From IMG/VR virus record IMGVR_UViG_3300036853_000417, positions 1-64,000 of that record: a stretch of 64,000 nucleotides of DNA. One strand, given 5' to 3'. The notes under the pieces are model-generated. The model was not told where the DNA came from, ran no database searches, and saw nothing but the letters and a program-made list of their open reading frames with translations. Positions 3,992 to 36,981 of this stretch are shown piece by piece (position 1 is the stretch's first letter; the number at the start of each line of letters is the position of its first letter). The translations under genes and the position numbers were made by a program. This stretch comes from a virus.

Positions 3992-4045
3992 GTATTTTCA
4001 TGTGCCAGAGTTACCATTCATGTTTTTACACTGGAAGGATGAACC

Positions 4046-10297: not shown

Positions 10298-10329
10298 TCG
10301 AACAAAAATTCTCAAGAAGAGAAACCATT

Positions 10330-10557: not shown

Positions 10558-10572
10558 AAGAGGTTCGTTATT

Positions 10573-10872: not shown

Positions 10873-10884
10873 ATAGGAGATTTT

Positions 10885-11764: not shown

Positions 11765-11788
11765 CGGTGTACGTAGAAAGGGAGAGTT

Positions 11789-12825: not shown

Positions 12826-14539
12826 GATGCGTGTATATGAAGTTGGCAAACACTTTATCAAAGGAGCAATAACACCGGGAACCCATTTCAATTACCAAAA
12901 TGGGAGACTTGTGCTCGAACTGTATCTTGATCAACTAACAGCAAGTAATATACAGGCTATCGAGACAGGCAAATGTGAATTTGCTCTGACAATAGTTGAG
13001 GATGTTATCTTCCTCCTTTCCAGGTTCGGTACCATGTTACCGTGGTTTGATTCCCCCTATTCCATTCATCTCTTAGAAGAAGGGGACCGGATAGTCCCGC
13101 CTATTCTGGAATCAGAAGAGATGGCAGAACTCACCATATTCCTTGTGTCCTCTGAAGATGGTGTTTTGCGAGCAATCCGGCGTATTCATCTCGGCCATAC
13201 ATTTAGCGTTATGCTCTTTGATGCAATCAGAGTACAGCTCGATATGCCATTTAATAGAGAGGCATACGATAATAGAATTACCACACTTTATGGATTATAC
13301 AGCTCGAATGATCTTGCACAAATGTCCATTATACGTTGCATAGTTGATGCAAGAACAACTAAAAGAGCAAAACATATTCCTCACAAAGATAGCGATAAGC
13401 CACTTATTGAGAAGTACCTGACATACTTACGAATTGCCCATGAGGAAGCATTAGCGCGTATCAAACGTCGTACTCTATCACATGATTTGTATGATTTCAA
13501 TCTTGCGATGGCAAGATTGACCAGTCAGATTTACACCAATATGGCTGAGAAAGCCGTGAAGTATGAACTGGCTCGCAGTGGACAAAATATGACAGAGGTA
13601 CTGCGCCCCAGGCCCCTCATGAAAGAAGACATGGGGTTGCGTCATTTGATGGATATTGCTAACGAGAAATATTCCCTTGATCCAGATATCCCCACTCCTA
13701 TCTTACATATTCCAGATACGCCTATTTGGATTACGCTCGAACAACCCATCGAAATCAATACCGGACTGATAACAGGTCTCTTTTTTTGCTGTCCTGACCG
13801 TGAATTTGAAGACATGTTAAAGCAAAAACAGACAGCGGTCATGCAGCAGGTAATAAAGGAAGCAATCAAATATCCTGATGAAGACTATCGATGGAGTCTT
13901 TCCTTTATTGATTCTGATGGGGTCCCCCATTCACATTATCAGTACTATGAACAAGCACAGAAATGGGAAATTATTCCAGATAGACAGTTCGTTCCCTGTC
14001 CTACTGATAAGTGTACTTCTTATGAAGAATCTCATAAAGAAAGAAGATATCAACATATTTGCCCCTGTCCCTACTGTAGCGCGATCCTTGCTTACTGGAG
14101 GAGCTGGTTTGTTACGGCGCTTCTGGTTGTTGGTCGTGAATTTGCTGCTAATGAGGAAGAGGCATGGCCTGAGAAGACGGAGAATTATAGGAGAAAGGTG
14201 AAGCGTCCAGGGAGCGGAAAGTATGATGAAGTGCCGGTCACTCATACCTACCATTATGTCAGCTTTGACGCGTGTATAAAACGAGCATACCCTCCACAAG
14301 ATCACAAGCCTGTGTCGCGCGGCTCGTGGGTAGCAGATGCACAACAGATAGATCCTGAGAGCGTCATCTACATTCGGCGCAATTTTGGGAAGAGTGACCG
14401 CTTACTTGATCCAGAGCGAAATCCTCGATGGAAAACAAAGAGAGTTGTGCCCGTGAAAGCGCACGAGAAATGCGTGCCTATGAGAGTAGAGAGTGTGCAG
14501 AAGTACATTTACCATGTATTTGCCTCGAAGTATGAGTGA
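12818..14539 (+). CDS. Large protein of unknown function with central zinc-like cluster, 573 aa
   Basis: AAAGGAG precedes the ATG at 12818, which lies inside the end of the HAD gene. Residues 1-250 are alpha/beta with no known motif. Around residue 400 are CPTDKC and, about 20 residues later, CPCPYC, a likely zinc site. The C-terminus is basic (WKTKRVVPVKAHEKCVP). Overlap with the integrase gene by 8 nt puts it in an integration module, as is common for unknown partner proteins of recombinases on mobile elements; the functional link is inference. Confidence 0.65.
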   Translation: MGKMRVYEVGKHFIKGAITPGTHFNYQNGRLVLELYLDQLTASNIQAIETGKCEFALTIVEDVIFLLSRFGTMLPWFDSPYSIHLLEEGDRIVPPILESEEMAELTIFLVSSEDGVLRAIRRIHLGHTFSVMLFDAIRVQLDMPFNREAYDNRITTLYGLYSSNDLAQMSIIRCIVDARTTKRAKHIPHKDSDKPLIEKYLTYLRIAHEEALARIKRRTLSHDLYDFNLAMARLTSQIYTNMAEKAVKYELARSGQNMTEVLRPRPLMKEDMGLRHLMDIANEKYSLDPDIPTPILHIPDTPIWITLEQPIEINTGLITGLFFCCPDREFEDMLKQKQTAVMQQVIKEAIKYPDEDYRWSLSFIDSDGVPHSHYQYYEQAQKWEIIPDRQFVPCPTDKCTSYEESHKERRYQHICPCPYCSAILAYWRSWFVTALLVVGREFAANEEEAWPEKTENYRRKVKRPGSGKYDEVPVTHTYHYVSFDACIKRAYPPQDHKPVSRGSWVADAQQIDPESVIYIRRNFGKSDRLLDPERNPRWKTKRVVPVKAHEKCVPMRVESVQKYIYHVFASKYE

Positions 14540-15641
14540 TATAATAAGAAAGCAGGGACAGCACATGACTGAGCTTATGAGGTATGGTCAAGATCCACTG
14601 GCAGTGGCGGGTGCAATGGCAAATCAGCAGGCTGAAGAGGGCAAACTTTCACGATATCAGGAACTTCTGTCTCCTGATACTCTCAGGAGACAACGGGCAG
14701 ATCTCATGCTTTTTCAACGATATCTGGCCGAAAAGCGGAATGTGGTTCTGACAGGTCTCTTTGAAGATCTCTCAGAATGGCAGGGAATTACCTATGGACT
14801 GGTGGAGGATTACAAGCGGTGGCAGAAGGAAGAAGGATATGCACTTACCTCGGTTGCAATACGCCTGACGACTATACATGTCTATGCACGATTGGCCTTT
14901 GAAATTGGCCATATCCCTTTAGAAGAATACCTCAAGATCAAGGAGGTGAGAGGGGATAGCCAGCGGCATCGGCAGGCTATCGATGAGGGGAGACCAGTAA
15001 ATAAACGGAGGCGTCCGAATGCCAAACGCGCGGAGCCAATTATCCTATCTGCCAGCCAATGTCGCGCAATCAGGCAGGCTCTCCTGGATAAAATGAACTT
15101 CTGTACGAAATCTGAGTACTGTATGGCTGTACGAGATCTTGCCCTGTTCACCCTACTGTGTTATCAGGGCTTTCGGGTAGGGGAGGTTGTCAGGTTGTGC
15201 CGTAATGAGGTGCACTTAGATCGCGGCCTGATTATTGTGCATAGGCACAAGGTCAGGATAGAACAAAAACACGAACTTCATCCTCTAACTCTATCCGCAC
15301 TCAAAATGTATCTGGAGATAGTTAAAACACGAATATTGCTCTTTGAAGGGACAGATCGAGACCCTTGCATTCTTAATGGAAAGACATATACCGGATCGCG
15401 TGCGATTGATGGTATGGATGAGGACTCTGTTGCATATCGAATTGAAAAGTGCGGCCTGATGATTGGTATAGAGGGCCTGGCACCACATGACCTTAGACAT
15501 TCCTGGGCGAATGATTTAGCTGAGAATGGTACACCGATTGAAGTACTCAAAGAGGCGGGTGGATGGGCAACATATCAGATGCCAGAGCACTATAAAGGAA
15601 AAGCGAAAATTGCAAATAAAGGAGTCAGGCAATCTTCTTGA
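14532..15641 (+). CDS. Tyrosine recombinase / phage integrase, 369 aa
   Basis: An N-terminal core-binding-like helical region is followed by a catalytic domain with FRVGEVVRL (first Arg), a HRHKVR region (Lys), HDLRHSWANDLAENG (HxxR) and GGWATYQMPEHY (His/Trp and Tyr nucleophile). All signature residues appear intact. The start is at 14532 or at 14565, where AGGGA is better placed. It closes the 10.3-15.6 kb operon and is followed by a terminator. It would act in integration or dimer resolution; no attachment site was found next to it. Confidence 0.88.
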   Translation: MSDIIRKQGQHMTELMRYGQDPLAVAGAMANQQAEEGKLSRYQELLSPDTLRRQRADLMLFQRYLAEKRNVVLTGLFEDLSEWQGITYGLVEDYKRWQKEEGYALTSVAIRLTTIHVYARLAFEIGHIPLEEYLKIKEVRGDSQRHRQAIDEGRPVNKRRRPNAKRAEPIILSASQCRAIRQALLDKMNFCTKSEYCMAVRDLALFTLLCYQGFRVGEVVRLCRNEVHLDRGLIIVHRHKVRIEQKHELHPLTLSALKMYLEIVKTRILLFEGTDRDPCILNGKTYTGSRAIDGMDEDSVAYRIEKCGLMIGIEGLAPHDLRHSWANDLAENGTPIEVLKEAGGWATYQMPEHYKGKAKIANKGVRQSS

Positions 15642-20567: not shown

Positions 20568-21176
20568 CTATTCTTGTGAATTATCCCTTTTTAAACCAAT
20601 ATATAAATCATCTAATTCAGCAATCTTTCGCATATCTTCTATTCCCCAATACACCATTCCTTCATATTTATCAGAAATTGGAAGCAAAATAGGATGACAG
20701 AATAATCCAGTAGGTGCAGGACGATGCTCAGTTGGTACGCACTGTTTATCTAATGCTTTCTCTGACTTCGGTTTAATGATATGAAAGACATAGTGAGGAA
20801 TACGTGTAAGTCGTTCAGATTTGAGATAAATTTCCCAGCACCATTGATCAATACCTGATTGGTATCTTTTATTTTTGCGATAGTAGGAGCATTCATCTTT
20901 TTCCTTAATATCTGCAAAAAAGTGAGGAGGAAGTCCTTTAGGGGTAAGTTGTCGATTTTGATAAGGCCAAAATGCCTCAATATCTTGTACTGGCAAATTT
21001 TGCTTACAAACTTCATGAGATAAATAGAATCTTGGGCCATGTTGTTGTAATTCATTGCTTCTACCACGATGTAGAATGACAAACTTCAGATCTTTAAGAA
21101 AGTTCGCTATTATTTCCTCCTGATTCCATGCGTGCTTTAACGTTTCTAGTTTTTTTTCGGGAGTTTCATTCCACAT
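20568..21176 (-). CDS. Unknown protein, 202 aa
   Basis: Its start overlaps the end of the ParB-methyltransferase gene by 11 nt. It contains HFFADIKEKDECSYY and, about 20 residues on, WCWEIYLKSE, which could be part of a D...ExK nuclease fold, but the match is weak. A partner of the adjacent methyltransferase (restriction-like) is one idea suggested by position only. Confidence 0.55.
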   Translation of the reverse strand: MWNETPEKKLETLKHAWNQEEIIANFLKDLKFVILHRGRSNELQQHGPRFYLSHEVCKQNLPVQDIEAFWPYQNRQLTPKGLPPHFFADIKEKDECSYYRKNKRYQSGIDQWCWEIYLKSERLTRIPHYVFHIIKPKSEKALDKQCVPTEHRPAPTGLFCHPILLPISDKYEGMVYWGIEDMRKIAELDDLYIGLKRDNSQE

Positions 21177-22770
21177 TTGCTAGTCTCCTCTGCATAGCCA
21201 TAAAGAAAGTGTTATCCTTCTCAATACCAATGAACCTTCTTCGCAATTCTTTGGCTGCTGCGCCACTAGATCCCACACCAGCAAAACCATCAAAGACCGT
21301 ATCACCTCGATTGCTGCTTACTTGTATCAGATGCTTTAGAACTGATACAGGCTTTTGTGTGGGATGAAGAGTATCTCCTTTAGCATCAACTATTCTTTCT
21401 TTTCCAGAACAGATTGGTGCATCAATATAATCATGCATTTCATTCTCACCCTGCCAGTTAAGTGTATGTCTTCCCTTACCTTTAGTGAAAAAGAGGATGT
21501 ACTCACAGCTACTGCGATAAGTTGCTTTTACAATTTGTGGGCCTGGATTGGTCTTGTGCCATGTGATCATGACATGTACGTGTAAGTTTGCTTTTTGCAA
21601 GACTTCTCGCAAGTAAGAAACATACCAATAGGAACAAAAGACATAACCCGATCCATGTGGACGAAGAATTCGCATCCACTCTTGTGCCCATAAATCAAAG
21701 AGTGCAATGAACTCTTTAGGGATGTATTTATCCCACGCCCCAAAGTCTTGTGAGCGGTTATTTCTACCATCAAGATCAAATTCCCGCTCATTAGCTATAT
21801 TGTATGGAGGATCGGTTACAATAAGGTCAATGCTTTCATTAGCGATCTTCTTGACTTCTTCATAGAAATCACCATGAATCAGAGAAATGCTATTCTTCTG
21901 TTCATACTCATCGCGTATCGAAGCAATCAGCTTTTGCAACTTGGGGTGTGTCTCTTGCTTCCAATCAGCATCATATGCCCCACTATATACCTCATCGATA
22001 AGTTGCGTTGTGTATGTATCTCCTAGTGATTCGATCTGTTCTAGTGCATATTTCTTCATCTGGTTACGTGCTTTGTAGTTTCCAGCTAGAACTTTGAATT
22101 TTCCTTTAGAAAAGTTAGAATTAGTAATCAGTTCTTGAACCAGCTCCAATTGTTGTGAGGGCGTGAGGTCAAGAATTGAGCGGAGTAAGTTTTCTGTAAA
22201 GGGGGCGGTCGCCCCCTCAAGGGGGGCGACACCATTTTCCTCACCAGGGGCGGCACTCTCAAAAGTCGCCCCTATCATACTCCAAGCCTCTTTCTCTATT
22301 TTTCTGAGAGCAGCGTAGTCCTTCACACTCTCCTTATTCCATCCAAGCATCTGTCCAACATCAGCTTGTGTATATTTCTTCTTCCCCTGTTCATCCTCTT
22401 CTTCCAACCTTGCCCAAATAAACTCAGCATAGGTAACTAGTGTTGATGGGACAACCGTCTCAGCAGCATTGTTGCACTGCATTGCCATCTGATAGAATTC
22501 AGCTTCTGTGAATCCAGATTTAACTACGCAAGGGACAGAGATTATATCTAGTCCTTTAGCCGCCTCATGGCGATGATTGCCATCTATGAGAAGATAACCA
22601 TCTTCATAAGGAGTCACTGTTAAGGGGTAATTCTCTAAAAAACCTGCCCAACGCATACTTTCCTGTAAACGGGCAATACCAGATGCGCTGAGTCTACGCA
22701 CTGATAATTTAGATATAATTTTATTTAGAGGAAGTATTACAAAATGAGGAGTTTCAACTTCAGTTGTCAT
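21166..22770 (-). CDS. ParB-like domain fused to DNA N4/N6 methyltransferase, 534 aa
   Basis: Residues about 10-160 form a ParB/Srx-type N domain (IDGNHRHEAAKGLD; TQADVGQMLGWNKESVKDY helix-turn-helix). Residues about 295-534 form a class-I methyltransferase with LIVTDPPYN (DPPY, about 320-323) before the SAM-binding VFDGFAGVGSSG near residue 495, the order of beta-class amino-methyltransferases. This ParB-MTase fusion is common in phages. It would methylate A or C in the element's own DNA. A GC-rich repeat encodes part of the linker. Genes downstream overlap it. Confidence 0.85.
   Translation of the reverse strand: MTTEVETPHFVILPLNKIISKLSVRRLSASGIARLQESMRWAGFLENYPLTVTPYEDGYLLIDGNHRHEAAKGLDIISVPCVVKSGFTEAEFYQMAMQCNNAAETVVPSTLVTYAEFIWARLEEEDEQGKKKYTQADVGQMLGWNKESVKDYAALRKIEKEAWSMIGATFESAAPGEENGVAPLEGATAPFTENLLRSILDLTPSQQLELVQELITNSNFSKGKFKVLAGNYKARNQMKKYALEQIESLGDTYTTQLIDEVYSGAYDADWKQETHPKLQKLIASIRDEYEQKNSISLIHGDFYEEVKKIANESIDLIVTDPPYNIANEREFDLDGRNNRSQDFGAWDKYIPKEFIALFDLWAQEWMRILRPHGSGYVFCSYWYVSYLREVLQKANLHVHVMITWHKTNPGPQIVKATYRSSCEYILFFTKGKGRHTLNWQGENEMHDYIDAPICSGKERIVDAKGDTLHPTQKPVSVLKHLIQVSSNRGDTVFDGFAGVGSSGAAAKELRRRFIGIEKDNTFFMAMQRRLANVE
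22200..22275. repeat. GC-rich in-frame element inside the ParB-methyltransferase gene
   Basis: A patch of GGGGCG/CGCCCC words in several orientations, including the near-perfect palindrome GGGGGCGGTCGCCCCC, in a gene that is otherwise about 43% GC. It codes for roughly residues 166-191 (Ala/Gly/Pro/Glu-rich) in the linker between the two domains and keeps the frame. Confidence 0.6.
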
Positions 22771-23671: not shown

Positions 23672-24334
23672 ATGATTAACCTTGTTGCTAAGTCGATAGA
23701 TATCCTACAGGCTCATCCACGCAATTACCGTATCCATCCTGAGGATGAAATTGAGCATCTCATGGAGAGTATTCGTCTACATGGCATCTATCGCAATATT
23801 GTCATTGCACAGGATGGAAAGACGATTCTGGCTGGACACGGAGTTGTAGAAGCTGCTCGTAGACTTGGGATGACACAGGTCCCTGTGTTTCAGACAAACT
23901 ATCAACCTGATGATCCACATGCTTTAAAACTGCTGGTTGGTGATAATGAGATCCAGCACCTTGTTGAGGCTGATGATAGGGCACTCACGGAACTCTTACG
24001 TGAACTGAAAGAGATTGATGACCTACTTAGCACTGGTTATGATGAGATGATGCTTGCTAATCTCGTCATGGTCAGTCGGCCTGCATCTGAGATTACCGAT
24101 CTGGATGCAGCCTCACAATGGGTAGGACTACCTGAGCATGATAGAGAAGGAGAGCGCCGACTTCAAATTATCGTGAACTTTGCCAATGAGGAAGACCGCA
24201 AAGCATTCTGTCATCTGCTCGGCCTTGAGTCCAGCAAGATTGCAAATGAAGGAACAGGAAAGTCTATCTGGTGGCCGAAGCAAGATCGAGATGATGTGAA
24301 ATCCCTTCGCTTTACTGATGGGAGACAAGGATGA
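23672..24334 (+). CDS. ParB-like N-domain protein of the hypermodification cassette, 220 aa
   Basis: Residues 1-110 match the ParB/Srx fold: HPRNYRIHPEDEIEHLMESIRLHG, IVIAQDGKTILAGHGVVEAARRLGM, LLVGDNE. This is the short ParB-like protein seen beside TET and glycosyltransferase genes in phage base-modification clusters. The C-terminal 90 residues are unrecognised. Overlaps the next gene by 4 nt. A role in targeting or regulating modification is inferred from context. Confidence 0.8.
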   Translation: MINLVAKSIDILQAHPRNYRIHPEDEIEHLMESIRLHGIYRNIVIAQDGKTILAGHGVVEAARRLGMTQVPVFQTNYQPDDPHALKLLVGDNEIQHLVEADDRALTELLRELKEIDDLLSTGYDEMMLANLVMVSRPASEITDLDAASQWVGLPEHDREGERRLQIIVNFANEEDRKAFCHLLGLESSKIANEGTGKSIWWPKQDRDDVKSLRFTDGRQG

Positions 24335-25290
24335 CTCACCGAATACTCCCAAACTATCCTATCTATATTCCCAGCAAAGGTCGTGCTGATTGCTGCTATA
24401 CTGCCAAATGTCTTGATGCTGGTGAAGTTCCATTTCATCTCGTTATTGAACCACAAGAAGAAGCTCTCTATCGGGTGCAGTTCCCCAGTGCTCATTTTCT
24501 AATTCTCCCCTGGAATGGTGATGATCAGGTACGACGTGATTTCTGCCAGCAACGTCGTATTGAGAATGGGGGCCTCATTGCTGCACGCAACTGGATTAAA
24601 GAGCATGCCACAGCAACAGGCAGTGAAAGACATTGGCAGTTAGATGACAATATCACAGAGTTCTATCGGCGCTACAAGGGTAAGCGTATCCGATGTGAGT
24701 CGGGTCTTGCACTACGTGCCTGTGAAGACTTTACTGACCGTTATGAGAATGTTGCGATCTCAGGTCTCAATTATTATATGTTTGTTATGGATGATAAGCA
24801 GACATCTCCACTTGTTATTAATTGTCATGTGTATTCTTGCTCCCTGATCCTGAATGCACTTCCCTTCTGCTGGCGTTTGGCCTACAATGATGATACGGAT
24901 ATATGCCTGCAAGTCCTCTCAACAGGGATATGGTGTACGGTACTCATCAATGTCTTCATGTGTAGGAAGTTGCGCACAATGACTGTACAGGGTGGCAATA
25001 CTGCTGATCTCTATCAAGGTGATGGACGATTGCATATGGCGCGTTCACTTGAACGGGTATGGCCAGGCATCGTTGAAACAAAGCGTCGTTTTCATCGACC
25101 ACAACATGTCATAAAAGAGAACTGGAAATGCTTTGATACTCCGCTTCGATTGAAACCGGACATTGATCTAACACAACTTCCTCCAACCAATGAATATGGG
25201 ATGGATCTTTGTCAGATCAAAGATGTAATCAAAAGTCCCCGAATCCAAAGATTACATGATGCATGGCAACAGACACATAGATCTGAGTAA
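24331..25290 (+). CDS. TET-associated glycosyltransferase (TAGT-like), 319 aa
   Basis: The start YPIYIPSKGRADCCYTAKCL, the ARNWIKEHA segment and the DxD-like HWQLDDNI (about residue 107) match the GT-A-like glycosyltransferases first described next to TET/JBP genes in phages. NDDTDICLQVL is a second acidic motif. It would transfer a sugar to a hydroxymethylated base in DNA. Coupled to the ParB-like gene before it. Assignment is by eye from family memory. Confidence 0.7.
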   Translation: MTHRILPNYPIYIPSKGRADCCYTAKCLDAGEVPFHLVIEPQEEALYRVQFPSAHFLILPWNGDDQVRRDFCQQRRIENGGLIAARNWIKEHATATGSERHWQLDDNITEFYRRYKGKRIRCESGLALRACEDFTDRYENVAISGLNYYMFVMDDKQTSPLVINCHVYSCSLILNALPFCWRLAYNDDTDICLQVLSTGIWCTVLINVFMCRKLRTMTVQGGNTADLYQGDGRLHMARSLERVWPGIVETKRRFHRPQHVIKENWKCFDTPLRLKPDIDLTQLPPTNEYGMDLCQIKDVIKSPRIQRLHDAWQQTHRSE

Positions 25291-25302
25291 GGATTTCTTA
25301 TT

Positions 25303-25393
25303 ATGAGGGGCAATTTTATCTTTAGTGATGCATGGTCTTTTTCACAAAAAGTGAGGTTTGCATGGCAAAAATGCCATTGTTGAAGTTGCCCCT
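25303..25393 (+). other. Folded leader before the P-loop kinase gene
   Basis: AGGGGCAA (25306-25313) pairs with TTGCCCCT (25386-25393). Inside are TCAC-GTGA and ATGGCA-TGCCAT hairpins. A 26-codon frame from 25303 to 25383 (MRGNFIFSDAW...) shares the space and could instead be a small gene. The gap 25291-25450 is the only real break within the cassette. Confidence 0.35.
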
Positions 25394-25450
25394 TGAATAG
25401 TGCTGGTATGCTCTGTATACTTATAGTAGATTACTGGAAAAGAGGAAAAA

Positions 25451-26035
25451 GTGGACAGGGGAAATTCATCACTTTTCGTTCTTGGCGCTCCTGGGACTGG
25501 AAAATCAATCCTGTTACGTTCTTTTCTTCAATCCCTCGGATCTTTTGGAGAGTCTTATCAGTACAACCTGATTACCGGACAATGGTTTTCTGACTATTCA
25601 TTGTTGGTTTTGGGAGAATATGTATCTGAGGAATCCTTTCCCGGCACTGATCGCTGGTCAATGGAGGTACAACGGTGTGCAGCAGGATTTTGGCAGGACA
25701 TTGCTCAACAATCTTGTACAGTTCTTGGTGAGGGAAGTCGCATTGCAACACGTCCCTTTATTGATGCGGCACGTATCTCTACGCTGGTCTCTCTTGTTTT
25801 CTTACAGGTACACACTGATATTCTACAGGCACGCAGGGAATGGAGAGGAAAGCAAAATGCATCCTGGGTGAAAGGGATAGAGACACGCATAGAGAATCTT
25901 CAGCACTATTATCAAAATCAATTGCCCTGTTTTACCTGGAAGAATGAAACAGACCAGGACCTCACACGCAATCTGAATGCATTGCATACAATGTTATTTA
26001 GCTCGATGTCTGTACATATGGAGGACCTATCATGA
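25451..26035 (+). CDS. P-loop kinase, probable DNA base (hydroxymethyl-pyrimidine) kinase, 194 aa
   Basis: GTG start after AAAGAGGAAAAA. Walker A is LGAPGTGKS (residues 11-19). The following LGEYVSEESFPGTDRWS resembles the G-x-Y...F-G-x-D motif of phage 5-hydroxymethyl-dU DNA kinases. Such kinases phosphorylate the hydroxymethyl group in DNA so that an amino compound can replace the phosphate. Overlaps the next ParB-like gene by 4 nt. Kinase type is inference; P-loop is direct. Confidence 0.6.
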   Translation: MDRGNSSLFVLGAPGTGKSILLRSFLQSLGSFGESYQYNLITGQWFSDYSLLVLGEYVSEESFPGTDRWSMEVQRCAAGFWQDIAQQSCTVLGEGSRIATRPFIDAARISTLVSLVFLQVHTDILQARREWRGKQNASWVKGIETRIENLQHYYQNQLPCFTWKNETDQDLTRNLNALHTMLFSSMSVHMEDLS

Positions 26036-26838
26036 GTACTACAGTTGTTACCCATAAAACGATTCCGCTTTCACTCATTGATACGCACGCTCGTAATTAT
26101 CGCAAGCATCCTCCTGCACAATTAGAGAGGCTGCGTGCCTCGCTTATCCGATTCTCGCAGGTGCGTTCTATCGTCGTGCAGGCAAAAGAAGGTGGTCGCT
26201 ACAGGATACTGGCAGGGCATGGAGTTGCATCGGCTGCACTTGAATGTGGAATTCTCAAGCTGCATTGTAACGTTGTTCCTGACAACTGGGATGAGGGGAC
26301 CTGTAATGCATATCTTGTTGCTGATAATGAGGTTGAACGAGGGGTGGATCTTGATAATCAACTTTTAGCTGAATTGCTGAAAGAGCAGGTGGATGCTGGA
26401 TACTCGCTAGATGCATTAGGTATTCAAGAGAAAGAATTTACTGATCTTTTGCAAATACTCCAGGAATCTGATCGTGCTGTCCCGTCTTTTGCTGAACTTG
26501 AAGAAGAGGAGGAGGATGTACGACAGTCGATGACCCTTCCTCAAGGGAGAACTGCCGATATTGTGAACTCTAAGAATATCAATCAAAAAGGAGATGGTGT
26601 TGCATTCGGGAGAGATCCAAAGCAATGGTTGCAGCAGTATGAAACAACTATGCTACGACAGATAGTTCTCATCTATAAAAGCGATGAATATACACGTGTT
26701 TTAACCCAATTTATGGCTATTCGTCGCCAAAATAATCTGGAAACAAATGCCGATGTTGTAGGAGAACTTCTTTCATTTTATTTAAAGAGTCATCCAGAAC
26801 TTGAAGAGGAGGCAAAGCAATATGCCTCTTCAGTCTGA
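26032..26838 (+). CDS. Second ParB-like protein of the cassette, 268 aa
   Basis: ParB N-domain pattern again: IDTHARNYRKHPPAQLERLRASL, IVVQAKEGGRYRILAGHGVASAALECG, NAYLVADNEVERG. The C-terminal 120 residues have an acidic linker (LEEEEEDVR) and a helical end unlike the first copy. Only moderately similar to the copy at 23672, so not a recent duplication. Coupled to the genes on both sides. Confidence 0.8.
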   Translation: MSTTVVTHKTIPLSLIDTHARNYRKHPPAQLERLRASLIRFSQVRSIVVQAKEGGRYRILAGHGVASAALECGILKLHCNVVPDNWDEGTCNAYLVADNEVERGVDLDNQLLAELLKEQVDAGYSLDALGIQEKEFTDLLQILQESDRAVPSFAELEEEEEDVRQSMTLPQGRTADIVNSKNINQKGDGVAFGRDPKQWLQQYETTMLRQIVLIYKSDEYTRVLTQFMAIRRQNNLETNADVVGELLSFYLKSHPELEEEAKQYASSV

Positions 26839-27676
26839 GCCAAGAGTCATCACTCGACCAAGACGTGAGCTTGATCTCAAGTCATATCGTTTTCGGAGAG
26901 CAGAGATACGTGACTATACAGAATTGTTGACCTCTTCCACTATTTTGCGAGATGAAGCTAGTGGAAGAGTGCGTGTTGTTTATCTCGTATTATCTGATGA
27001 TTGTAATGAGATTGTCCAGTCACTGCGCTCTATTCAATTTGAAATAGATGAGCGTGCATCAGGAATGCTTTCTCAATCTCGGATATTTGGATATCGTCCA
27101 AGAATTACCATTCGAGATGATTTTTGTACGACTGCTGCTCTTGCTCGCGAGCATCCTTTTGCCTACAAACTTATTTCTTCCTATGCAGCAAAGGTTTCAG
27201 ATTACTACCATCAGTTCAATCCTGAGTTGTTTATAGAACATCAACGGATAGTAGGTCGTGTGCTTCCTGAATGGAGGCTGGAGGGATCGGTTTTTACCTC
27301 TGGAATTATTAATAAGAATAATCCTTTGCCTTATCACTTTGATCAAGGAAATTTTCAGGATGTTTGGAGTAATATGCTTGTTTTCAAGCACCAAATAGGA
27401 GAGGGGTATCTTTCTGTTCCTGAATATGACATTGGTTTTGAGGTAGCACATAATTCTCTTCTGATGTTTGATGGGCAAAACATTCTACACGGAGTAACAC
27501 CTATTTATTTAGAAGGACCTGAAGCTTTTCGTTATTCCATCGTTTACTATAGCTTAAAATCAATGTGGAATTGTCTGTCTCCCGATGAAGAGGTGAGGCG
27601 TATTCAACGTTTGCGTACCTCTCGTGAAGAAAAAAGATTTTTCAAATATCTTCCACCAAAGGAGATGCCAGAATGA
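26822..27676 (+). CDS. TET/JBP-family 2-oxoglutarate/Fe(II) dioxygenase, 284 aa
   Basis: ATG at 26822 behind GAGGAGGC. The double-stranded beta-helix core carries PYHFDQGNF (iron ligands H172 and D174), then SLLMFDGQNILHGVTP (distal His, H223) and FRYSIVYYS (2OG-binding R237). This is the TET/JBP layout. The enzyme would hydroxylate 5-methylcytosine or thymine in DNA, giving the hydroxymethyl group that the cassette then decorates. Length suits phage TETs, which lack vertebrate extensions. No C5-methyltransferase is in the window. Confidence 0.8.
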   Translation: MPLQSEPRVITRPRRELDLKSYRFRRAEIRDYTELLTSSTILRDEASGRVRVVYLVLSDDCNEIVQSLRSIQFEIDERASGMLSQSRIFGYRPRITIRDDFCTTAALAREHPFAYKLISSYAAKVSDYYHQFNPELFIEHQRIVGRVLPEWRLEGSVFTSGIINKNNPLPYHFDQGNFQDVWSNMLVFKHQIGEGYLSVPEYDIGFEVAHNSLLMFDGQNILHGVTPIYLEGPEAFRYSIVYYSLKSMWNCLSPDEEVRRIQRLRTSREEKRFFKYLPPKEMPE

Positions 27677-28569
27677 TCATGTCTGCAAAGGTATTTGAGG
27701 ATTTTGCATTCTTCTGTCAGCATCAACTTGTGAGTAAAGATGTTGATCCCGTCTATCCATTGTTGCGGTTGCTGGTATCTCCTCTCTTGGAGGAGCAGGC
27801 ACTCTGGCACACACTCCTCTATGTTGGATATTACTCTCTCCCTTCATCTCGTGCCGCTTTTGATCGTGTTCCCAGTGTTGATGCACTTCCCTTGTCCCTG
27901 TCACGTTTACCAACTGGGGTAGAGCGAAGAGGATTTCGTGGAGGAACCATTACCAGGCATGTTGATAGCTTGCTTTATTTGCACGAGACATTTGGAAGTT
28001 TGAAAGCATGGCTCTGTCAGGAATTTGGGAGAGACATACGACAGAACTGGATTCATTTACAAAATACCCTGCAGCAGGCATGGGGGAATGGACGGTGGGC
28101 TGCTTATAAGACCGGAGAAATTTTACAGAAAGTCCATGATTTTCCAGTGCAGCCAACAGATATGGGACATGAGTTTTCAACGGGTCCTCGTCATGGTCTT
28201 GCCCTTTTCTATGGGAATGCTTGGGGGAATGCTCCTGATGCTATTCAAACACTGAATGCTCAGGGAGAAAATCTCCTACAGTGTCTTGCAGAACAAGGGA
28301 TACACATGGGCATAGAGCAGTTAGAGACAATGCTCTGTGATTTTTATTCCCTGGTAGGGGGACGCTATTATGTTGGTCATGATATTGATATGCTACAGAC
28401 ACAATTACTTGCCTCCTCTCTTTCATCAGATATCCTTGAACCTATCTGGCAAGCAAGAAAAAGAGCATTACCACACGCATATCTGGGAGAAATACAAGGC
28501 TGGACAGGAATTGATAGGGAGCGGAAAAAAGTGTATCAAAGAACAGGAAGGGTGATTATTCGTGGCTAA
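27673..28569 (+). CDS. AADT / AGPT-pyrophosphorylase-like helical protein, 298 aa
   Basis: Helical protein with a middle section LLYLHETFGSLKAWLCQEF and GNGRWAAYKTGEILQKVH, similar in look to the glycosylase-fold family called amino-acid:DNA transferase or alpha-glutamyl/putrescinyl-thymine pyrophosphorylase in phage hypermodification clusters. These join an amino compound to an activated base. Start codon overlaps the TET stop. Recognition rests on context plus short motifs, so the call is tentative. Confidence 0.5.
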   Translation: MIMSAKVFEDFAFFCQHQLVSKDVDPVYPLLRLLVSPLLEEQALWHTLLYVGYYSLPSSRAAFDRVPSVDALPLSLSRLPTGVERRGFRGGTITRHVDSLLYLHETFGSLKAWLCQEFGRDIRQNWIHLQNTLQQAWGNGRWAAYKTGEILQKVHDFPVQPTDMGHEFSTGPRHGLALFYGNAWGNAPDAIQTLNAQGENLLQCLAEQGIHMGIEQLETMLCDFYSLVGGRYYVGHDIDMLQTQLLASSLSSDILEPIWQARKRALPHAYLGEIQGWTGIDRERKKVYQRTGRVIIRG

Positions 28570-29452
28570 ACAGTGTCACCTTGTGGGTATGGGGCTGACT
28601 GGAGCGATGGTTGCATGGATACTCTATCAACATGGCTATACATTCACATGGGAGGATAATGACCAATCTGTTTGTGCCTGGAAAGCTTCAACAGGACTGA
28701 TTTACCCTTGTGGGGATGACGGAGAAATGAAAGCATACTCTATCTGGAAACAATGGCATGGAGGAAGAGCATCCTGGTCTGGTTGCCAGGTAATTGAAAA
28801 ATGTGTAGAAGCTGGATCATTCTGGTTTGTGACGAAGAATCCTCCCCACGGGGGAACCTATTCAATTGAGCGCTCAATTGGATTGCTGCATCTTGCCTCT
28901 CTTTCATCATATCACTTGAATGTTCAGCATTTTGTGCGGCAAACCAGGCAGATATTTTCTGCTTGCCGCAAAGATAGATCTCATGGTCAGATCATTATTG
29001 CGAATGGATATGGATCACGCCTCCACCATTATCTTTGGGGCTGGTCTGCTCGCGTTCACCTCTCTTTTTCACAGGATTTGCTCAATGCTTCCCCATTGCG
29101 TCCAACATTCTATTTACGTCGCTCACGTTATCAATTTGGATATGCCAATATCATTCCTGGGGAATCTGTCTATTATGCAGGTTCATCCCTCATTCATCAG
29201 GCTGAACCAAAATCCTTGAATATTGATTCTAAATATGAACGATGGAAACAACATGTATTTGATACAACTGGAGGCAAGATATGTGTAACAGGTGTTTTGG
29301 ACAGGCAAGAAGGATGGAGACCTGTATCAGACAAGCAAGATCTCGCATGGATTACACAAGAGAATGGGATGCTGATCGTGCGCCCAATGGGTAGCTCCGG
29401 GGTCCGTCTTGCCCCATTGCTATGTGAAGCATTGCTTAAAATACTGGGATAG
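28562..29452 (+). CDS. FAD-dependent amino-oxidase-like (DAO family) enzyme, 296 aa
   Basis: GTG start inside the end of the previous gene. The N-terminal Rossmann GMGLTGAMVAWILYQHG with acidic strand end (WEDND) binds FAD. The C-terminus GWRPVSD...MLIVRPMGSSGVRLAPLLCEALL is the second FAD contact of glycine/D-amino-acid oxidases. In phage cassettes such enzymes trim an amino acid already attached to the base. Last enzyme gene before the terminase. Confidence 0.7.
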   Translation: MAKQCHLVGMGLTGAMVAWILYQHGYTFTWEDNDQSVCAWKASTGLIYPCGDDGEMKAYSIWKQWHGGRASWSGCQVIEKCVEAGSFWFVTKNPPHGGTYSIERSIGLLHLASLSSYHLNVQHFVRQTRQIFSACRKDRSHGQIIIANGYGSRLHHYLWGWSARVHLSFSQDLLNASPLRPTFYLRRSRYQFGYANIIPGESVYYAGSSLIHQAEPKSLNIDSKYERWKQHVFDTTGGKICVTGVLDRQEGWRPVSDKQDLAWITQENGMLIVRPMGSSGVRLAPLLCEALLKILG

Positions 29453-29461: not shown

Positions 29462-29995
29462 ATGCGCGAAACACCTGATTCAGCTTTGGCATTTGAGCGA
29501 TATTATGACCTGGGAGAGGATCGTACCTTAGCCCTTCTTGCCCAAAAAATGCGTCAGGAAATGATCAGACAACAACAGATCCTGAGGGATACCAAACCCA
29601 TACCAACAGAAGCAACACTGCTCTCTCGTTATAAGAAATGGTCAAAGGCACACAAATGGCAGGAGCATGTCATTCAGCGTGACCGCGCACAGGCAGAAAA
29701 GGACCGTAAGAAGAGGCTAAAAGCCATAGAGCAGATGAATGATGAACATTCACTGTTTGGACGAACACAGGCAATGCAGGCAGTAAGACAAATCAAAGAA
29801 TTGATTGATGCAAAGAAACTTGGGGCGCCTGCAGCAGTGCAGCTCTTTAAATATGCAACCGATCTGGAACGGGTAGCGCGGGGGGCTGCTACCGAAGTGG
29901 CACATCTTCAGCATACAGGTGAAGAAGGTGGACCAATTGTCATTAAGACCGAATGGGGGACGGTAAAACTTGATCGCAATGAAGAGGAGATATAA
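29462..29995 (+). CDS. terS: Terminase small subunit candidate, 177 aa
   Basis: Directly precedes and overlaps the large terminase by 1 nt, with GGGGAAAG before the ATG. Charged helical protein: an N-terminal helix-turn-helix-like region (LLSRYKKWSKAHKWQEHV), a central coil and a C-terminal acidic beta tail (WGTVKLDRNEEE). Called from position and composition. Confidence 0.7.
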   Translation: MRETPDSALAFERYYDLGEDRTLALLAQKMRQEMIRQQQILRDTKPIPTEATLLSRYKKWSKAHKWQEHVIQRDRAQAEKDRKKRLKAIEQMNDEHSLFGRTQAMQAVRQIKELIDAKKLGAPAAVQLFKYATDLERVARGAATEVAHLQHTGEEGGPIVIKTEWGTVKLDRNEEEI

Positions 29996-31332
29996 TGCCT
30001 ACTGCTACTCGCGAGTATCGCGTTCGGCTCTACACTCCTCATCCAGGTCAAGTCCCTCTCCATGAAAGTCGGGCGCGTTTTCGTGTGATAAATTGCGGCA
30101 GAAGATTCGGGAAAACGTATTTCGCCGCGAATGAAGAATGTAAGTTTGCCCTTGACCACAATGATGTTCTCTGCTGGTGGGTAGCTCCAACATATAGACA
30201 ATGTAAGATTGCCTATCGTTTGATGAAGAGAGCCTTAAAAGAGGTGCTGGTCAAGCATAGTGATACGGATCTTCGCTTAGAAATCATCAATGGTTCTGTT
30301 ATCGAGTGTCGGTCATGCGATAAACCAGACAACCTGCTTGGAGAAGGTATACACCTGCTCGTCGTTGATGAGGCCGCCATGCTTCCAGATAGCACGTGGT
30401 TCAATGTGCTGCGTCCCATGCTTTCAGACACAAATGGGAAAGCTATCTTTATCTCAACACCCAAGGGTCGCAACTGGTTTTACACGATGTACTTGCGGGG
30501 GTTGGACCCACTTCAGAAAGATTATGAGTCCTTTACCAGGCCCACATCCGCCAACCCCTACATTGATCCAGAAGAAATTGCGCATGCAAAAGAAGATTTG
30601 CCAGAGGATGTCTATGAGCAAGAATACCTGGCAGAATTTAAGGAGAATGCAGCGGGCGCGTTTCGGGGGATTGATGCCTGTATTGAAGGAGAGCTACAGG
30701 AGCCTCGCCCTGGAGTCATTTATGAAATTGGGTATGATGTAGCCAAGCATCGGGATTTTTCAGTGATCACGGTGCTCAATACTTCAACACAGCATGTAGA
30801 CTGGTGGTACAGGGTCAATCACGTGGATTACGTTGTTCAAGTCCAAGATTTAAAAGATATTGCAATGCGCTATAATAATGCGCACGTACTGATGGATGCT
30901 ACCGGCGTTGGGGACGCGGTGATGGAGATGGCACGCCTGGTTGGGGTCACTGTTGATGGATTTCTCTACACCAATACCTCTAAAACCAATCTTATTGGTG
31001 ATCTGATTGTGGGTATCCAGCACCGGGCCATTACATTTCCTGATATTCCGGTACTGGTCGGGGAGCTACGTGCAATGCAGGTCAAATATTTACCAAGTCG
31101 TCTGGTTCAATATGAAGCCCCTCCCGGCTATACGGATGATGGAGTGCATTCACTGGGTCTCTGCTACAAAGCAGGTGCAACAGGTGGTACAATAGCCTTA
31201 TCATCTTCTCATCAGGACAAGGGTGATGAACTTCCTGTACAACATCAATCTGATGATGATCTGATTATGGAGCGCCAGGCGCAGATGGCAAGATTGCTTG
31301 GACGTGTTCGTATTACATCAACATTTGGATAG
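29995..31332 (+). CDS. terL: Terminase large subunit, 445 aa
   Basis: ATPase half with Walker A GRRFGKT (residues 35-41) and Walker B LLVVDEA (121-127), then IFISTPKGRNWFY (coupling motif). The C-terminal RNase-H-like nuclease has EIGYDVAKHRDFSVI and later VLMDATGVGDAVME and YTDDGVHSL, supplying the acidic residues. Full length. It pumps DNA into the prohead through the portal encoded next. Confidence 0.93.
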   Translation: MPTATREYRVRLYTPHPGQVPLHESRARFRVINCGRRFGKTYFAANEECKFALDHNDVLCWWVAPTYRQCKIAYRLMKRALKEVLVKHSDTDLRLEIINGSVIECRSCDKPDNLLGEGIHLLVVDEAAMLPDSTWFNVLRPMLSDTNGKAIFISTPKGRNWFYTMYLRGLDPLQKDYESFTRPTSANPYIDPEEIAHAKEDLPEDVYEQEYLAEFKENAAGAFRGIDACIEGELQEPRPGVIYEIGYDVAKHRDFSVITVLNTSTQHVDWWYRVNHVDYVVQVQDLKDIAMRYNNAHVLMDATGVGDAVMEMARLVGVTVDGFLYTNTSKTNLIGDLIVGIQHRAITFPDIPVLVGELRAMQVKYLPSRLVQYEAPPGYTDDGVHSLGLCYKAGATGGTIALSSSHQDKGDELPVQHQSDDDLIMERQAQMARLLGRVRITSTFG

Positions 31333-31358
31333 ACTTGTACAGATGTGTGGAGAACGTG

Positions 31359-33089
31359 GTGAGTAGGAGACGATACAAAAAAGCAAAAAAAGGAAATTGG
31401 CAACATCTTATTGAGAATGAAGAGTTGCGTACTGCATTCTTGCGCTTTGCACGAAGTATTCATACAGCAGAGGAATCGGCAGAGCAGATAGCAGTGCGTG
31501 CTGGCCGACCTGCTTCACAGTTTATCGATTTACGCGAGGCTGGTCGTATTCTGGACCGATATCCTCAGTTATCTGGTTATCTCTTGAGTATTCGAGAACG
31601 CCAGGAAGAGCTACAAGATGCTCAAATGAGGCATAAAGAATCCCCCACACATGAAGTATCTCAGGCTGCGGCGCTTGGAGGATGGGCAGGATATCAAAAT
31701 GTGACACCACAGGGAGTCCCTAATGCACGTGCCTTGCGCAATTTTGCAGATGAATGTGAATTTGTAGCGGCAAGTATTAATCATTATTGTGATCGTATCA
31801 GCAGATTTAAACTAACGGTACTCCCCATCGATGAACAAAAACCATATAATCGCTCAGTTGAAAAAGAGATGATTGCGCTTCTTGAAAATCCTAATGAACT
31901 GGGAGATACCGTTGCTGATATTGTAAGTACCATCACTCGTGATTATCTTACCATTGGACGCGGCATTATCAGCAAAGCAATGTCAGTGCGGCGCATTCCT
32001 ACAACGCTCTATATGGAGGATGCAGCCCTGTTTCGGATTGATCCAAAGTGGAGTGGAAATGCTGAAGAACCTCGCTATCTCTACCAACCAAATTCACAGA
32101 CAAAGATCCCACTACGCAATGATGAGATTATTTGCTTACTTTGCGGTCCATCCACCTTTCGTCTATCATTTTCTCCTGTCCAGATCTTGAGAAACACCAT
32201 TCTCTCTGACCTCAAAGCGACAGAGAGCGCATCCCGACTGGTCGAGCACAAACCTCCTCCTCACCTTGTTCAACTGCCAGGAGCCAGCGCAGCACAAATT
32301 GATCGTTTGCGATCAACCTATGATGCAGATATTGCAGGACATCGTGAGATCATGTTTCTGGGTGGCCCTAACCCGGCGCAGATCAAACCGATGATTTTCT
32401 CATTGCGGGACAATCAGTGGATGGAGTGGCTTGAATATCTGGCACGCAAAATAGCTGTTGTGTTTGGACTGTCTATACAAGATCTTTCCTTCACCGGAGA
32501 TGTCAACAGGGCAACCGCAACCAGCCAGCAAGAGCTATCAGAAAGCAAGGGACTTATCCCACTGATGCTTCGTATTGAAATGTATTTCCATCATCATCTT
32601 CTTTCAGATTTTGCTCCTAAGCGAAATGGTATTCCAGATATGCGTGCGCTCAACTTACGTGTTGCATATCCTGAGATTGGAGAAGCTATGCGTATGCTTC
32701 ATGTAGAGCAAACAATCCATCTGGCAACAAAAAGTCTTGCTGGTCTTCCCTCGCAAACGCTCAATCAGGTGCTCACTGCGCAGGGGTTAGAGCCTGTGCC
32801 AGGAGGAAATACTTTTTATCTCAAAACAGCAACCGGCGCTATTCCCTGGTTGTCTTATGACAATGATTTTGGTCCGACCATTCAGGAGAATCCAACAGAA
32901 GAAGAGAATAATTCTCAAAATCCCACGAATGAAGAGGAGAACAAGAGCTATCGCACCCCAAAGCGAGCAACCATTCAAAAATCACATCCATATGATAAGG
33001 AGGCACGCGATACTTTGGGTACCGCAATAGAACATATTTTCCACTCGATAGAAAAGCAAGGATCAGAGCAATTGAGGAGGCTACAATGA
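31359..33089 (+). CDS. Portal protein (HK97-type), 576 aa
   Basis: GTG at 31359 has GGAG at better distance than a TTG at 31335. The central part matches portal proteins: ITRDYLTIGRGIISK, LFRIDPKWSG, DEIICLLCGPSTFR, SPVQILRNTILSDLKATES, and IAVVFGLSIQDLSFTGDVNRATA with QQELSESKGLIPLM. The C-terminal Glu/Asn/Lys tail is low complexity. Forms the dodecameric DNA gate at one capsid vertex. Confidence 0.9.
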   Translation: MSRRRYKKAKKGNWQHLIENEELRTAFLRFARSIHTAEESAEQIAVRAGRPASQFIDLREAGRILDRYPQLSGYLLSIRERQEELQDAQMRHKESPTHEVSQAAALGGWAGYQNVTPQGVPNARALRNFADECEFVAASINHYCDRISRFKLTVLPIDEQKPYNRSVEKEMIALLENPNELGDTVADIVSTITRDYLTIGRGIISKAMSVRRIPTTLYMEDAALFRIDPKWSGNAEEPRYLYQPNSQTKIPLRNDEIICLLCGPSTFRLSFSPVQILRNTILSDLKATESASRLVEHKPPPHLVQLPGASAAQIDRLRSTYDADIAGHREIMFLGGPNPAQIKPMIFSLRDNQWMEWLEYLARKIAVVFGLSIQDLSFTGDVNRATATSQQELSESKGLIPLMLRIEMYFHHHLLSDFAPKRNGIPDMRALNLRVAYPEIGEAMRMLHVEQTIHLATKSLAGLPSQTLNQVLTAQGLEPVPGGNTFYLKTATGAIPWLSYDNDFGPTIQENPTEEENNSQNPTNEEENKSYRTPKRATIQKSHPYDKEARDTLGTAIEHIFHSIEKQGSEQLRRLQ

Positions 33090-34532: not shown

Positions 34533-34739
34533 ATGTCTTATTCTGCTGTTGGGCAGTGTACCAGGTGTGGTGCTCCGATCTATGCAGAATATCCCTGGAT
34601 GGCAGTTACTCCCCCTCCATTTCGTTATTCCTGTCTCTGTTGGGTTTCTGTGAAAAAAGGGAGACCATTCTACAAAACAACTTCAGGAACAACGGTAGAT
34701 GAACAAGATACAAAAAACAAGGAACAACAGAAAACATGA
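34533..34739 (+). CDS. Small zinc-ribbon protein, 68 aa
   Basis: TAGGAG before the ATG. CTRCGAPIY and, 20 residues later, CLCW give a CxxC...CxC ribbon. Hydrophilic C-terminus. Overlaps the methyltransferase gene by 4 nt. Confidence 0.6.
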   Translation: MSYSAVGQCTRCGAPIYAEYPWMAVTPPPFRYSCLCWVSVKKGRPFYKTTSGTTVDEQDTKNKEQQKT

Positions 34740-35173
34740 TGACAGAAAGAACAGCAGAGGGTCAGATTATCAACGGAGATGCTTTAATTGTGTTGAAAAA
34801 TCTACCTACACACTCGGTAGATTCCATTGTTACTGATCCACCTGGTGGGATTTTCTTTATGGGCAAAGAATGGGATAGCGATAAGGGTGGGCGAGATCAA
34901 TGGATCGCATGGTTAGCGTCAATTATGCAAGAGGCTCGCCGTGTGATCAAACCTGGGGGTCATGCTTTGGTATGGTCACTTCCTCGTACTGCACATTGGA
35001 CTGCAATAGCGTTAGAAGATGCAGGATGGGAAATAAGGGATAGTGTGCATCACATCTTCGGAAGCGGTATGCCCAAAAGTCATAATATAAGTAAAGCGGT
35101 AGAATCTGAGATAGTAAAACAACTGCAACTAAAAGGGATAGTATTTACTAGTTGGGAGGATGAACATGAATGA
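34736..35173 (+). CDS. DNA methyltransferase, N-terminal part of a split gene
   Basis: Begins GQIINGDALIVLKNLPTHSVDSIVTDPPGG, an amino-methyltransferase start with DPPG in place of DPPY, and continues through RRVIKPGGHALVWSLPRTAHW to GSGMPKSHNISKAVE. The rest of the enzyme (GTGMKPSHEVWWLARAPLS, SAM motif) lies beyond the antisense HNH gene at 35947-36981. The last ~15 codons here are read from the inserted sequence. Either two chains assemble or the enzyme is broken. Confidence 0.75.
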   Translation: MMTERTAEGQIINGDALIVLKNLPTHSVDSIVTDPPGGIFFMGKEWDSDKGGRDQWIAWLASIMQEARRVIKPGGHALVWSLPRTAHWTAIALEDAGWEIRDSVHHIFGSGMPKSHNISKAVESEIVKQLQLKGIVFTSWEDEHE

Positions 35174-35933
35174 GTTTTTCAAATCTATCTATGTATTGCG
35201 CTTCTTTGCCCCATATAGAGCGATGACAAGATACACACAATGTTATTCCATTAGTAATATCAAGAATACGTTCAGGACATTCTCTGACTGGATGTATGTG
35301 ATGTGCTTGTATGTCTCCATTGCTAGGCTTATTGCACATTTGGCAGGTATAATTATCACGTTCATATACAGATTTGCGCCAGTCTTTGTACTCAAATTGA
35401 CCATGAATAATAGCTCGATATTTAGTAATTCCTCCATTTTTCCAATTAGGATGAAGATGTTGACGATATTTTCCTTTAAGGCTGCTAGAAATCTTTTTAC
35501 GGGTAGTATCAGCAAGCTTGGCCCCGTATCGTGGGGAATTCTCTCCTATACGGCTTTTTGCATAATCACTCAATTCTTGTTTACGTTGAGCAGACAAGGG
35601 AATACCCTTGTTCCAACCAGCACATTTTTCAGTTTTATCTCGAATTGGAATTTCGTATTCATGCAACAATTTACTAATACTACTTTCAGACGAACCCAGT
35701 TGACGCCATATAGTATCTATACTCAATTCCTGATTTACATACAGTTCATGCAATTGTTCTTTACTAGATGCCACAGGACGTTGTGCAAGATGCCTGTCAC
35801 GAATGGGAATATCATATTTTCTCAACCAATTACTAATAGTTTGGCTAGAATTGACTCCTACAAGTGCAGCAATTTCAACTGTGGTCAAATTTTCAGTAAC
35901 ATACAAATTATACAAAGTGTCTTTGTCCAGCAT
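35148..35933 (-). CDS. HNH homing endonuclease inserted antisense in the methyltransferase gene, 261 aa
   Basis: Two N-terminal helix-turn-helix repeats (LTTVEIAALVGV...; LSIDTIWRQLGS...), a NUMOD3-like stretch (GENSPRYGAKLADTTRKKIS, HPNWKNGG), then the HNH nuclease: RDNYTCQMC, IQAHHIHPV, ITLCVSCHRS. All Cys and His of the motif are present. It has its own ribosome site (AGGAGCC). The gene sits exactly between the two halves of the methyltransferase, as expected of a mobile homing gene. Confidence 0.85.
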   Translation of the reverse strand: MLDKDTLYNLYVTENLTTVEIAALVGVNSSQTISNWLRKYDIPIRDRHLAQRPVASSKEQLHELYVNQELSIDTIWRQLGSSESSISKLLHEYEIPIRDKTEKCAGWNKGIPLSAQRKQELSDYAKSRIGENSPRYGAKLADTTRKKISSSLKGKYRQHLHPNWKNGGITKYRAIIHGQFEYKDWRKSVYERDNYTCQMCNKPSNGDIQAHHIHPVRECPERILDITNGITLCVSCHRSIWGKEAQYIDRFEKLIHVHPPN

Positions 35934-35946
35934 GGGAGGCTCCTTT

Positions 35947-36981
35947 ATGCAGTACCATAACTTTCCTAATTATAACACAACAGAAGAAATTATACAAGTT
36001 ACTGTATATGGAAGAACGTTAAATCTTATCAGACGTAATGGGAGATTTGTGAAACCTATTGAACTAAAAGAACTAGAAGGGAATGGGACTGGGATGAAGC
36101 CCTCTCATGAAGTATGGTGGCTGGCGCGTGCTCCTCTTTCAGAATCTACTGTAGCTGCTAATGTCCTAAAACATGGTACTGGTGCACTCAATATTGATGC
36201 CAGTCGAGTCTCATATGTGAGTGAGAAAGATGGACAACCTAAAGATTATAGCAATAGCAAAGGGATAGGAACCTATCAGGAAAGTTGTAAAGAACAGGGT
36301 GCCCGCAAATACGCAGATGGTTTTTCTTATCTTAAAAATAACTTTGTTGCACAGACTCCTGCCAATGGTCGATGGCCTGCTAATCTTCTGTTTTCTCACA
36401 CTTTATTTTGTACTGAGGAGCAATGTACAGAAGATTGTCCGATAGTGCTACTAGATAAACAGAGCGGGGTGAGGAAAAGCGTAAGAAGCCTAAGAGGCGG
36501 TGTGAAGCTCACCGGGACAACGTATAGCCCTCGATTTAAGCAAGAAATCAGCGAATATGAATGTGGCTACAATGATCAAGGTGGAGCTTCCCGTTTCTTT
36601 CAGCAATTTTACTACTGCCCTAAAGCTTCACAATCTGAAAGAGAATCAGGTTGCGAACATCTTTCTGAGCACAATGGATTTGATAAAAACACCAGTAAGC
36701 AGATAGCGCACATCAATCACGAAACAGGGAATACGACCTATTCAGAGTATTCCCCAAGTGTGCGTAAAAATAATCATCCAACGGTAAAGCCTGTAAATCT
36801 TTTGAAGTATCTTATCAGGATGATTACGCCTCCTGGTGGAACAGTTCTTGACATGTTTGCAGGAAGTGGGAGTACTGGGCTGGCAGCAATACAGGATGGA
36901 TGTACCTTTATTCTCATTGAAAAAGAGATTGAGTATGTAGAGATTGCACGTGCAAGGATAGCCGCTATCCAGAATGGATGA
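35947..36981 (+). CDS. DNA methyltransferase, C-terminal part of a split gene, 344 aa
   Basis: The ATG at 35947 has GGGAGG in front, so this half can be translated by itself. It contains GTGMKPSHEVWWLARAPLS and KHGTGALNIDASRV, normally found after the SKAxE region of the upstream half, and ends with the SAM motif LDMFAGSGSTGLAAI. The middle holds CTEEQCTEDCP. Together with 34736-35173 this makes one complete phage amino-methyltransferase. Confidence 0.8.
   Translation: MQYHNFPNYNTTEEIIQVTVYGRTLNLIRRNGRFVKPIELKELEGNGTGMKPSHEVWWLARAPLSESTVAANVLKHGTGALNIDASRVSYVSEKDGQPKDYSNSKGIGTYQESCKEQGARKYADGFSYLKNNFVAQTPANGRWPANLLFSHTLFCTEEQCTEDCPIVLLDKQSGVRKSVRSLRGGVKLTGTTYSPRFKQEISEYECGYNDQGGASRFFQQFYYCPKASQSERESGCEHLSEHNGFDKNTSKQIAHINHETGNTTYSEYSPSVRKNNHPTVKPVNLLKYLIRMITPPGGTVLDMFAGSGSTGLAAIQDGCTFILIEKEIEYVEIARARIAAIQNG

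Follow-up and report, generated by a model that had tools for sequence, protein, structure and literature searches.

The viral record IMGVR_UViG_3300036853_000417 (82,150 bp) carries, directly upstream of its terminase genes, seven genes that probably form two DNA modification modules in series: one that would make an aminomethyl pyrimidine by way of a TET dioxygenase and one that would independently add a sugar. The window analyzed here spans bases 1-64000 of that record, and the final 18 kb were also read. All seven open reading frames (ORFs), at 23672-29452, are intact, open, and on the + strand. The first two encode a ParB-like protein (ParB1, 23672..24334) and TAGT, a GT-A type DNA glycosyltransferase (24331..25290). 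The other five encode a P-loop kinase (25451..26035) predicted to phosphorylate the 5-hydroxymethyl group of a base in DNA, a second ParB-like protein (ParB2, 26032..26838), a TET/JBP dioxygenase (26822..27676), an amino acid:DNA transferase (ADDT, 27673..28569) predicted to be a glycinyltransferase, and an FAD-dependent amine oxidase/lyase-like protein (28562..29452). Each module is known by itself from other phages, and the new and unusual part is their union, with a ParB-TAGT pair beside the five-gene block. Two modules that are mutually exclusive elsewhere in the data set are thereby joined in one region.

Co-occurrence and ancestry of the two modules

Viral contigs searched with TET, ADDT, FAD, and TAGT queries yielded about 260 loci, a set that is biased by the choice of queries and contains many fragmentary records, with some loci overlapping on one contig so that the records are slightly fewer. 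TET is accompanied by a kinase and/or ADDT in 71 of these loci and by TAGT in about 52, and TAGT occurs without TET in 96, mostly with ParB and often before TerL. The window alone has TAGT together with the kinase, ADDT, and FAD genes. At the level of whole records, TAGT (PF20691) was found in none of 50 TET/ADDT records. ADDT (PF18724) was found in none of 48 records with TAGT, with TET and TAGT, or with TET alone, and both positive controls were detected. Profile searches found no TET in 45 solo TAGT records; with PF12851, for which both positive controls were also detected, one record gave a match below the cut-off. A scan of genome contigs returned two remote relatives only. The earlier note knew of no description of the two gene sets in one operon. 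The combination is indeed unusual for a glycosyltransferase with the kinase, transferase, and oxidase, which is unique in the data set, but not for TET with the kinase, ADDT, FAD, and ParB, which was already known. The note's premise that TET comes only with a glycosyltransferase, and that the kinase, transferase, and oxidase genes come without TET, found no support. TET with the kinase, ADDT, ParB, and in some cases FAD is widespread (about 71 loci) and has been published for the phages CaiB (PMC9302106) and Tonitrus (PMC11955845). Two side observations from the survey concern TAGT: 15 of the approximately 96 loci with TAGT and no TET (within L011-L030 and L186-L261) have a sugar-nucleotide epimerase/dehydratase-like neighbor, and L239 has a row of four TAGT genes, accompanied by several ParBs.

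Sequence relationships show separate origins for the two modules: ParB1-TAGT belongs with the solo units, and kinase-ParB2-TET-ADDT-FAD is of the amine-cassette type. Among 112 TAGTs placed in a tree, the window protein is sister to that of L011 (support 100/94); it lies in a clade of solo TAGTs without TET and falls outside the clade of glycosyltransferases that accompany TET. A tree of 120 TETs groups the window protein with that of L002, an ADDT-FAD-kinase-ParB-TET locus (99/82), close to, yet outside, the main TET/TAGT clade; support is lower (98/60, 97/70) for the wider four-row grouping. The ParB-like proteins follow the same division. ParB1 shares 57-62% identity with its nearest relatives beside solo TAGTs (best score, 243 bits) and reaches no more than 68 bits against ParBs beside TET, whereas the nearest relative of ParB2 is the ParB beside the L002 TET (33% over 273 aa, 135 bits). 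Together with the mutual exclusion described above and the gap between the two blocks described below, these trees and similarities are the reason for reading the locus as two modules. In one viral contig, L186, a ParB-TAGT pair stands before terminase and portal genes, and the five-gene block is absent. The simplest history, in which we infer the direction of the change, is that a ParB-TAGT phage gained the amine cassette between TAGT and the terminase. As a separate observation on these relatives, L002 has two TET genes and several ParBs in a single cassette (10004-13388), and L115 also has two TETs.

The layout of the genes also separates two blocks. ParB1 and TAGT overlap by 4 bp, and the successive genes from the kinase through FAD overlap as well, but a gap of 160 bp (25291-25450, + strand) splits the pair from the five-gene block. 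The gap contains a long inverted repeat (GGGGCAA...TTGCCCC) in a stretch with a fold z-score of -2.81, and a promoter-like site at 25393-25421 (TTGAAT-17-TATACT) of a kind that was no commoner than chance in the scan. An Rfam search of the region, including the folded stretch of the gap, matched zero RNA families. Seven tightly coupled genes had been claimed. They are all present, share the + strand, and mostly overlap, but the 160-bp gap and the different origins of the two blocks are grounds for rejecting a single unit of seven equally tight genes. Placement directly upstream of the terminase is correct: TerS (29462-29995, + strand) starts 9 bp after the end of the FAD gene and is directly followed by TerL (29995-31332, + strand), for which homologues were found. 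TerS, TerL, and portal genes together occupy 29462-33089, and Terminase_6N is among the matches to the downstream genes.

Protein families and proposed chemistry

All of the family assignments made in the earlier note hold. TAGT (PF20691, 1.5e-38), the kinase (Ploopntkinase3, PF18751, 1.3e-8), TET (Tet_JBP, PF12851, 4.2e-10), and ADDT (PF18724, 9.7e-18) all match above the curated Pfam gathering cut-offs, both ParB-like proteins belong to phrog_620 (ParB1, 4.6e-25; ParB2, 2.9e-23), and the FAD protein is assigned by its fold. ParB1 also gives a Pfam ParB_N match slightly below the cut-off (2.4e-5). Profile searches, which had been proposed as a check, placed none of the TET, transferase, kinase, or glycosyltransferase proteins in unrelated families, and the assignments support hypermodification as the likely function of the cassette. 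In TAGT, D105, D106, D188, and D190 are invariant across 13 relatives; a profile search of the PDB with TAGT gave zero matches. The kinase has a GAPGTGKS P-loop at residue 12 and a predicted model with a nucleotide-kinase fold and a predicted local distance difference test (pLDDT) score of 91, and 78 ORFs in related loci are members of its family. Its PDB profile search matched mainly generic P-loop proteins.

The TET protein is predicted from its sequence to oxidize a 5-methylpyrimidine in DNA. The iron ligands (H-x-D and H) and the 2-oxoglutarate Arg are all invariant in nine aligned TETs, and their numbering as H172, D174, H223, and R237 is right for a protein that begins with the ATG at 26822; a TTG start at 26801 would make them H179, D181, H230, and R244. 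Two PHROG-derived public names look wrong, namely queuine tRNA-ribosyltransferase for the TET homologues and terminase small subunit for the kinase, both of which are contradicted by Pfam and by context. PHROG 6059 and 800, exemplified by Nigel gp2 and gp3 (L009), carry these names. By profile, ADDT is related to a solved phage glycinyltransferase (8z2m, 1.4e-11) and also matches an amino acid:DNA transferase (25qc, 8.7e-16). The FAD protein has GMGLTG at residue 9 and a Pfam DAO match under the cut-off (0.019). Its AlphaFold model (pLDDT 92.5) has a D-amino-acid/glycine-oxidase fold, and Foldseek matched the model to D-amino-acid oxidase (2.5e-13), to glycine oxidase (7cyx, 5.3e-11), and to the phage 5-N-alpha-glycinylthymidine (N-alpha-GlyT) FAD-dependent lyase NGTO (8z2o, 3.7e-11, TM 0.61-0.63), with generic amino-acid oxidases matching equally well or better than NGTO.

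A reaction sequence can be proposed from these families. Neither the record, which may be incomplete, nor any of 50 related ones gave a thymidylate-synthase-type hydroxymethylase (PF00303), and TET acting on DNA must therefore be the source of the hydroxymethyl group. TET would hydroxylate the methyl group of a 5-methylpyrimidine in finished DNA, preferably converting thymine to 5-hydroxymethyluracil (5-hmU) and possibly 5-methylcytosine (5mC) to 5-hydroxymethylcytosine (5-hmC). Because ADDT matches a glycinyltransferase and the FAD protein has the fold described, the base would then pass from hydroxymethyl through phosphate and glycyl to aminomethyl: the kinase would phosphorylate the 5-hydroxymethyl group, ADDT would swap the phosphate for glycine, and the FAD enzyme would oxidize the glycyl group with release of glyoxylate, leaving 5-aminomethyl. 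Independently, ParB1-TAGT would add a sugar to a separate acceptor. Each ParB-like protein probably brings the enzymes of its own module to DNA. To judge from the location of the genes beside the terminase, the modifications may be made before packaging; they would shield the phage DNA from host nucleases. Such a route would put TET in the place that a nucleotide-pool hydroxymethylase holds in classical thymidine hypermodification, and it would end in 5-aminomethyl via a glycine intermediate.

Target base and competing readings

Thymine is more likely than 5mC as the TET substrate. It is favored because no C5-cytosine methyltransferase (PF00145 or the small C5 family) was found in the complete genomes of four phages with TET, namely CaiB, Tonitrus, Nigel, and MementoMori. 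Several points weigh against this choice of base or against the proposed pathway in general. The record itself encodes a C5-cytosine methyltransferase at 65003-65845 (PF00145, with PPCQ, ENV, and RHR motifs), so the substrate may be 5mC, and relatives of this enzyme adjoin TET in L118, L146, and L169 and are found near TET/ADDT in L071 and L092. The kinase matches generic nucleotide kinases (PF18751) and gave zero matches to any proven 5-hmU DNA kinase family. The FAD enzyme is matched by fold only, and its sequence profile found zero FAD enzymes in the PDB. Additionally, many of the compared records are fragments, close relatives of this phage are possibly missing from the searched sets, and the basis is one uncultured record. 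The methyltransferase is small and has a cysteine-rich C-terminal tail, and its family is common in mycobacteriophages and Paenibacillus phages.

A more specific form of the two-module reading can be put forward tentatively, as a serious possibility that may well be wrong: one genome would contain two hypermodified nucleotides, an aminomethyl pyrimidine derived through TET and a base carrying a sugar, each made by its own ParB-guided module, and this TAGT, as with its many solo relatives, would act on an acceptor that comes from some source other than TET or a nucleotide hydroxymethylase. It is possible, if doubtful, that cytosine is the target instead. The phage's own C5-methyltransferase would then make 5mC, which TET would convert to 5-hmC and the kinase, ADDT, and FAD enzymes to 5-aminomethylcytosine, with TAGT glucosylating other 5-hmC. 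The methyltransferase of the same record and the occurrence of its family beside TET, or near TET/ADDT/kinase, in the five loci listed above fit this proposal, and phage TETs are said to act on 5mC, reportedly in work by Burke et al. from 2021. However, about 36 kb separate the methyltransferase gene, which sits among tail genes, from the cassette. Its family is also present in the record of L012, where TAGT occurs without TET, and in many mycobacteriophages as well as Paenibacillus phages, and the four complete genomes have TET without such a methyltransferase.

Less likely still is one combined pathway in which a single base receives both a sugar and an amine, or in which TAGT caps the 5-hmU or 5-hmC from TET. 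The modules are adjacent and run in the same direction, TET is the only recognized enzyme in the record that could supply a hydroxymethyl group for TAGT, and a TAGT-type enzyme is encoded close to the thymidine-hypermodification genes of pelagiphages (PMC9599517). Nevertheless, the window TAGT sits in the TET-free clade, with no TET above the cut-off in 45 records, and not in the TET-associated one; each module has its own ParB; and TAGT is missing from all 50 TET/ADDT records. The earlier note had envisaged one base with a sugar and/or an amine, which is possible but less likely than two separate modifications, because the modules have different relatives and one ParB each. It is very improbable that the seven genes are silent or decaying cargo and yield no modified base: they come from one uncultured record, but all seven frames are open, gene overlaps and ribosome-binding-like sequences are kept, and the catalytic residues are conserved.

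Genomic setting and known systems

The phage encodes a tyrosine-type integrase (14493-15641) and is probably a provirus. TerC and HD/LuxR genes of bacterial look lie to the left of the integrase (2976-5584), which may mean that the record is a provirus plus flanking host DNA. The window also has three ORFs for N6/N4-type DNA methyltransferases at 21166-22770, 34736-35173, and 35803-36981. The first of these lies immediately upstream of the cassette, on the - strand, and has a ParB-like N-terminal domain.

The two modules, joined here in series, each have counterparts in known systems. In the Pseudomonas phages M6 and PaMx11, 5-hmU comes from a deoxyuridine monophosphate (dUMP) hydroxymethylase in the nucleotide pool. 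The steps proposed here for the amine module follow the published route from N-alpha-GlyT to 5-aminomethyldeoxyuridine (5-NmdU; Wen et al. 2024, cited in PMC11946847). The window ADDT is related to the solved glycinyltransferase, and the fold of its FAD protein is shared with the NGTO lyase and also with generic amino-acid oxidases, which match as well or better. In contrast, the record has no dUMP hydroxymethylase gene of the M6/PaMx11 type, TET taking its place, and where those phages have a 5-hmU DNA kinase the window has a PF18751 P-loop kinase, which gave no hit to a 5-hmU DNA kinase family. Pelagiphages of the HTVC023P type resemble the window in having a TAGT-type glycosyltransferase beside thymidine-hypermodification genes, but they have thymidylate synthase and aG/PT-PPlase1 (PMC9599517) where the window has TET, ADDT, and FAD.

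The TET and TAGT cassettes of viral contigs (about 52 loci) share with the window a TET, a TAGT-like glycosyltransferase, and a ParB before the terminase, although their glycosyltransferases belong to another clade and they have no kinase, ADDT, or FAD. Solo ParB-TAGT units such as L011, L013, and L186 have the same pairing as the window, often next to the terminase, and their nearest members are 57-62% identical in ParB1 and 55-71% in TAGT. Unlike the window, their records have no TET above the cut-off and no ADDT. Solitary TAGTs, with an acceptor that is not known, have been noted (PMC13216743), and the window raises the question of which acceptor the widespread ParB-TAGT units glycosylate in records with neither TET nor a hydroxymethylase.

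The closest comparison for the amine half is with CaiB (Gordonia DR-cluster) and Tonitrus. When the FAD protein was searched by tblastn against 50,697 phage records, matches came only from Gordonia phages of the CaiB group and from Rhodococcus phage Tonitrus, the homologues being CaiB gp5 and Tonitrus gp8. All five families of the CaiB/Tonitrus type of cassette are found together in the window, again with overlapping genes and the terminase downstream, at identities of 31-33% for FAD, about 32-36% for TET, and 37-40% for ADDT. The order differs, being ParB-TET-ADDT-kinase-FAD in CaiB and Tonitrus and starting with the kinase and ParB2 in the window. Furthermore, ParB1-TAGT is absent from the CaiB and Tonitrus genomes, and the record has a C5-methyltransferase, unlike either phage. 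Since CaiB and Tonitrus are isolated phages that carry the same five-gene set, the amine half of this arrangement is open to testing now.

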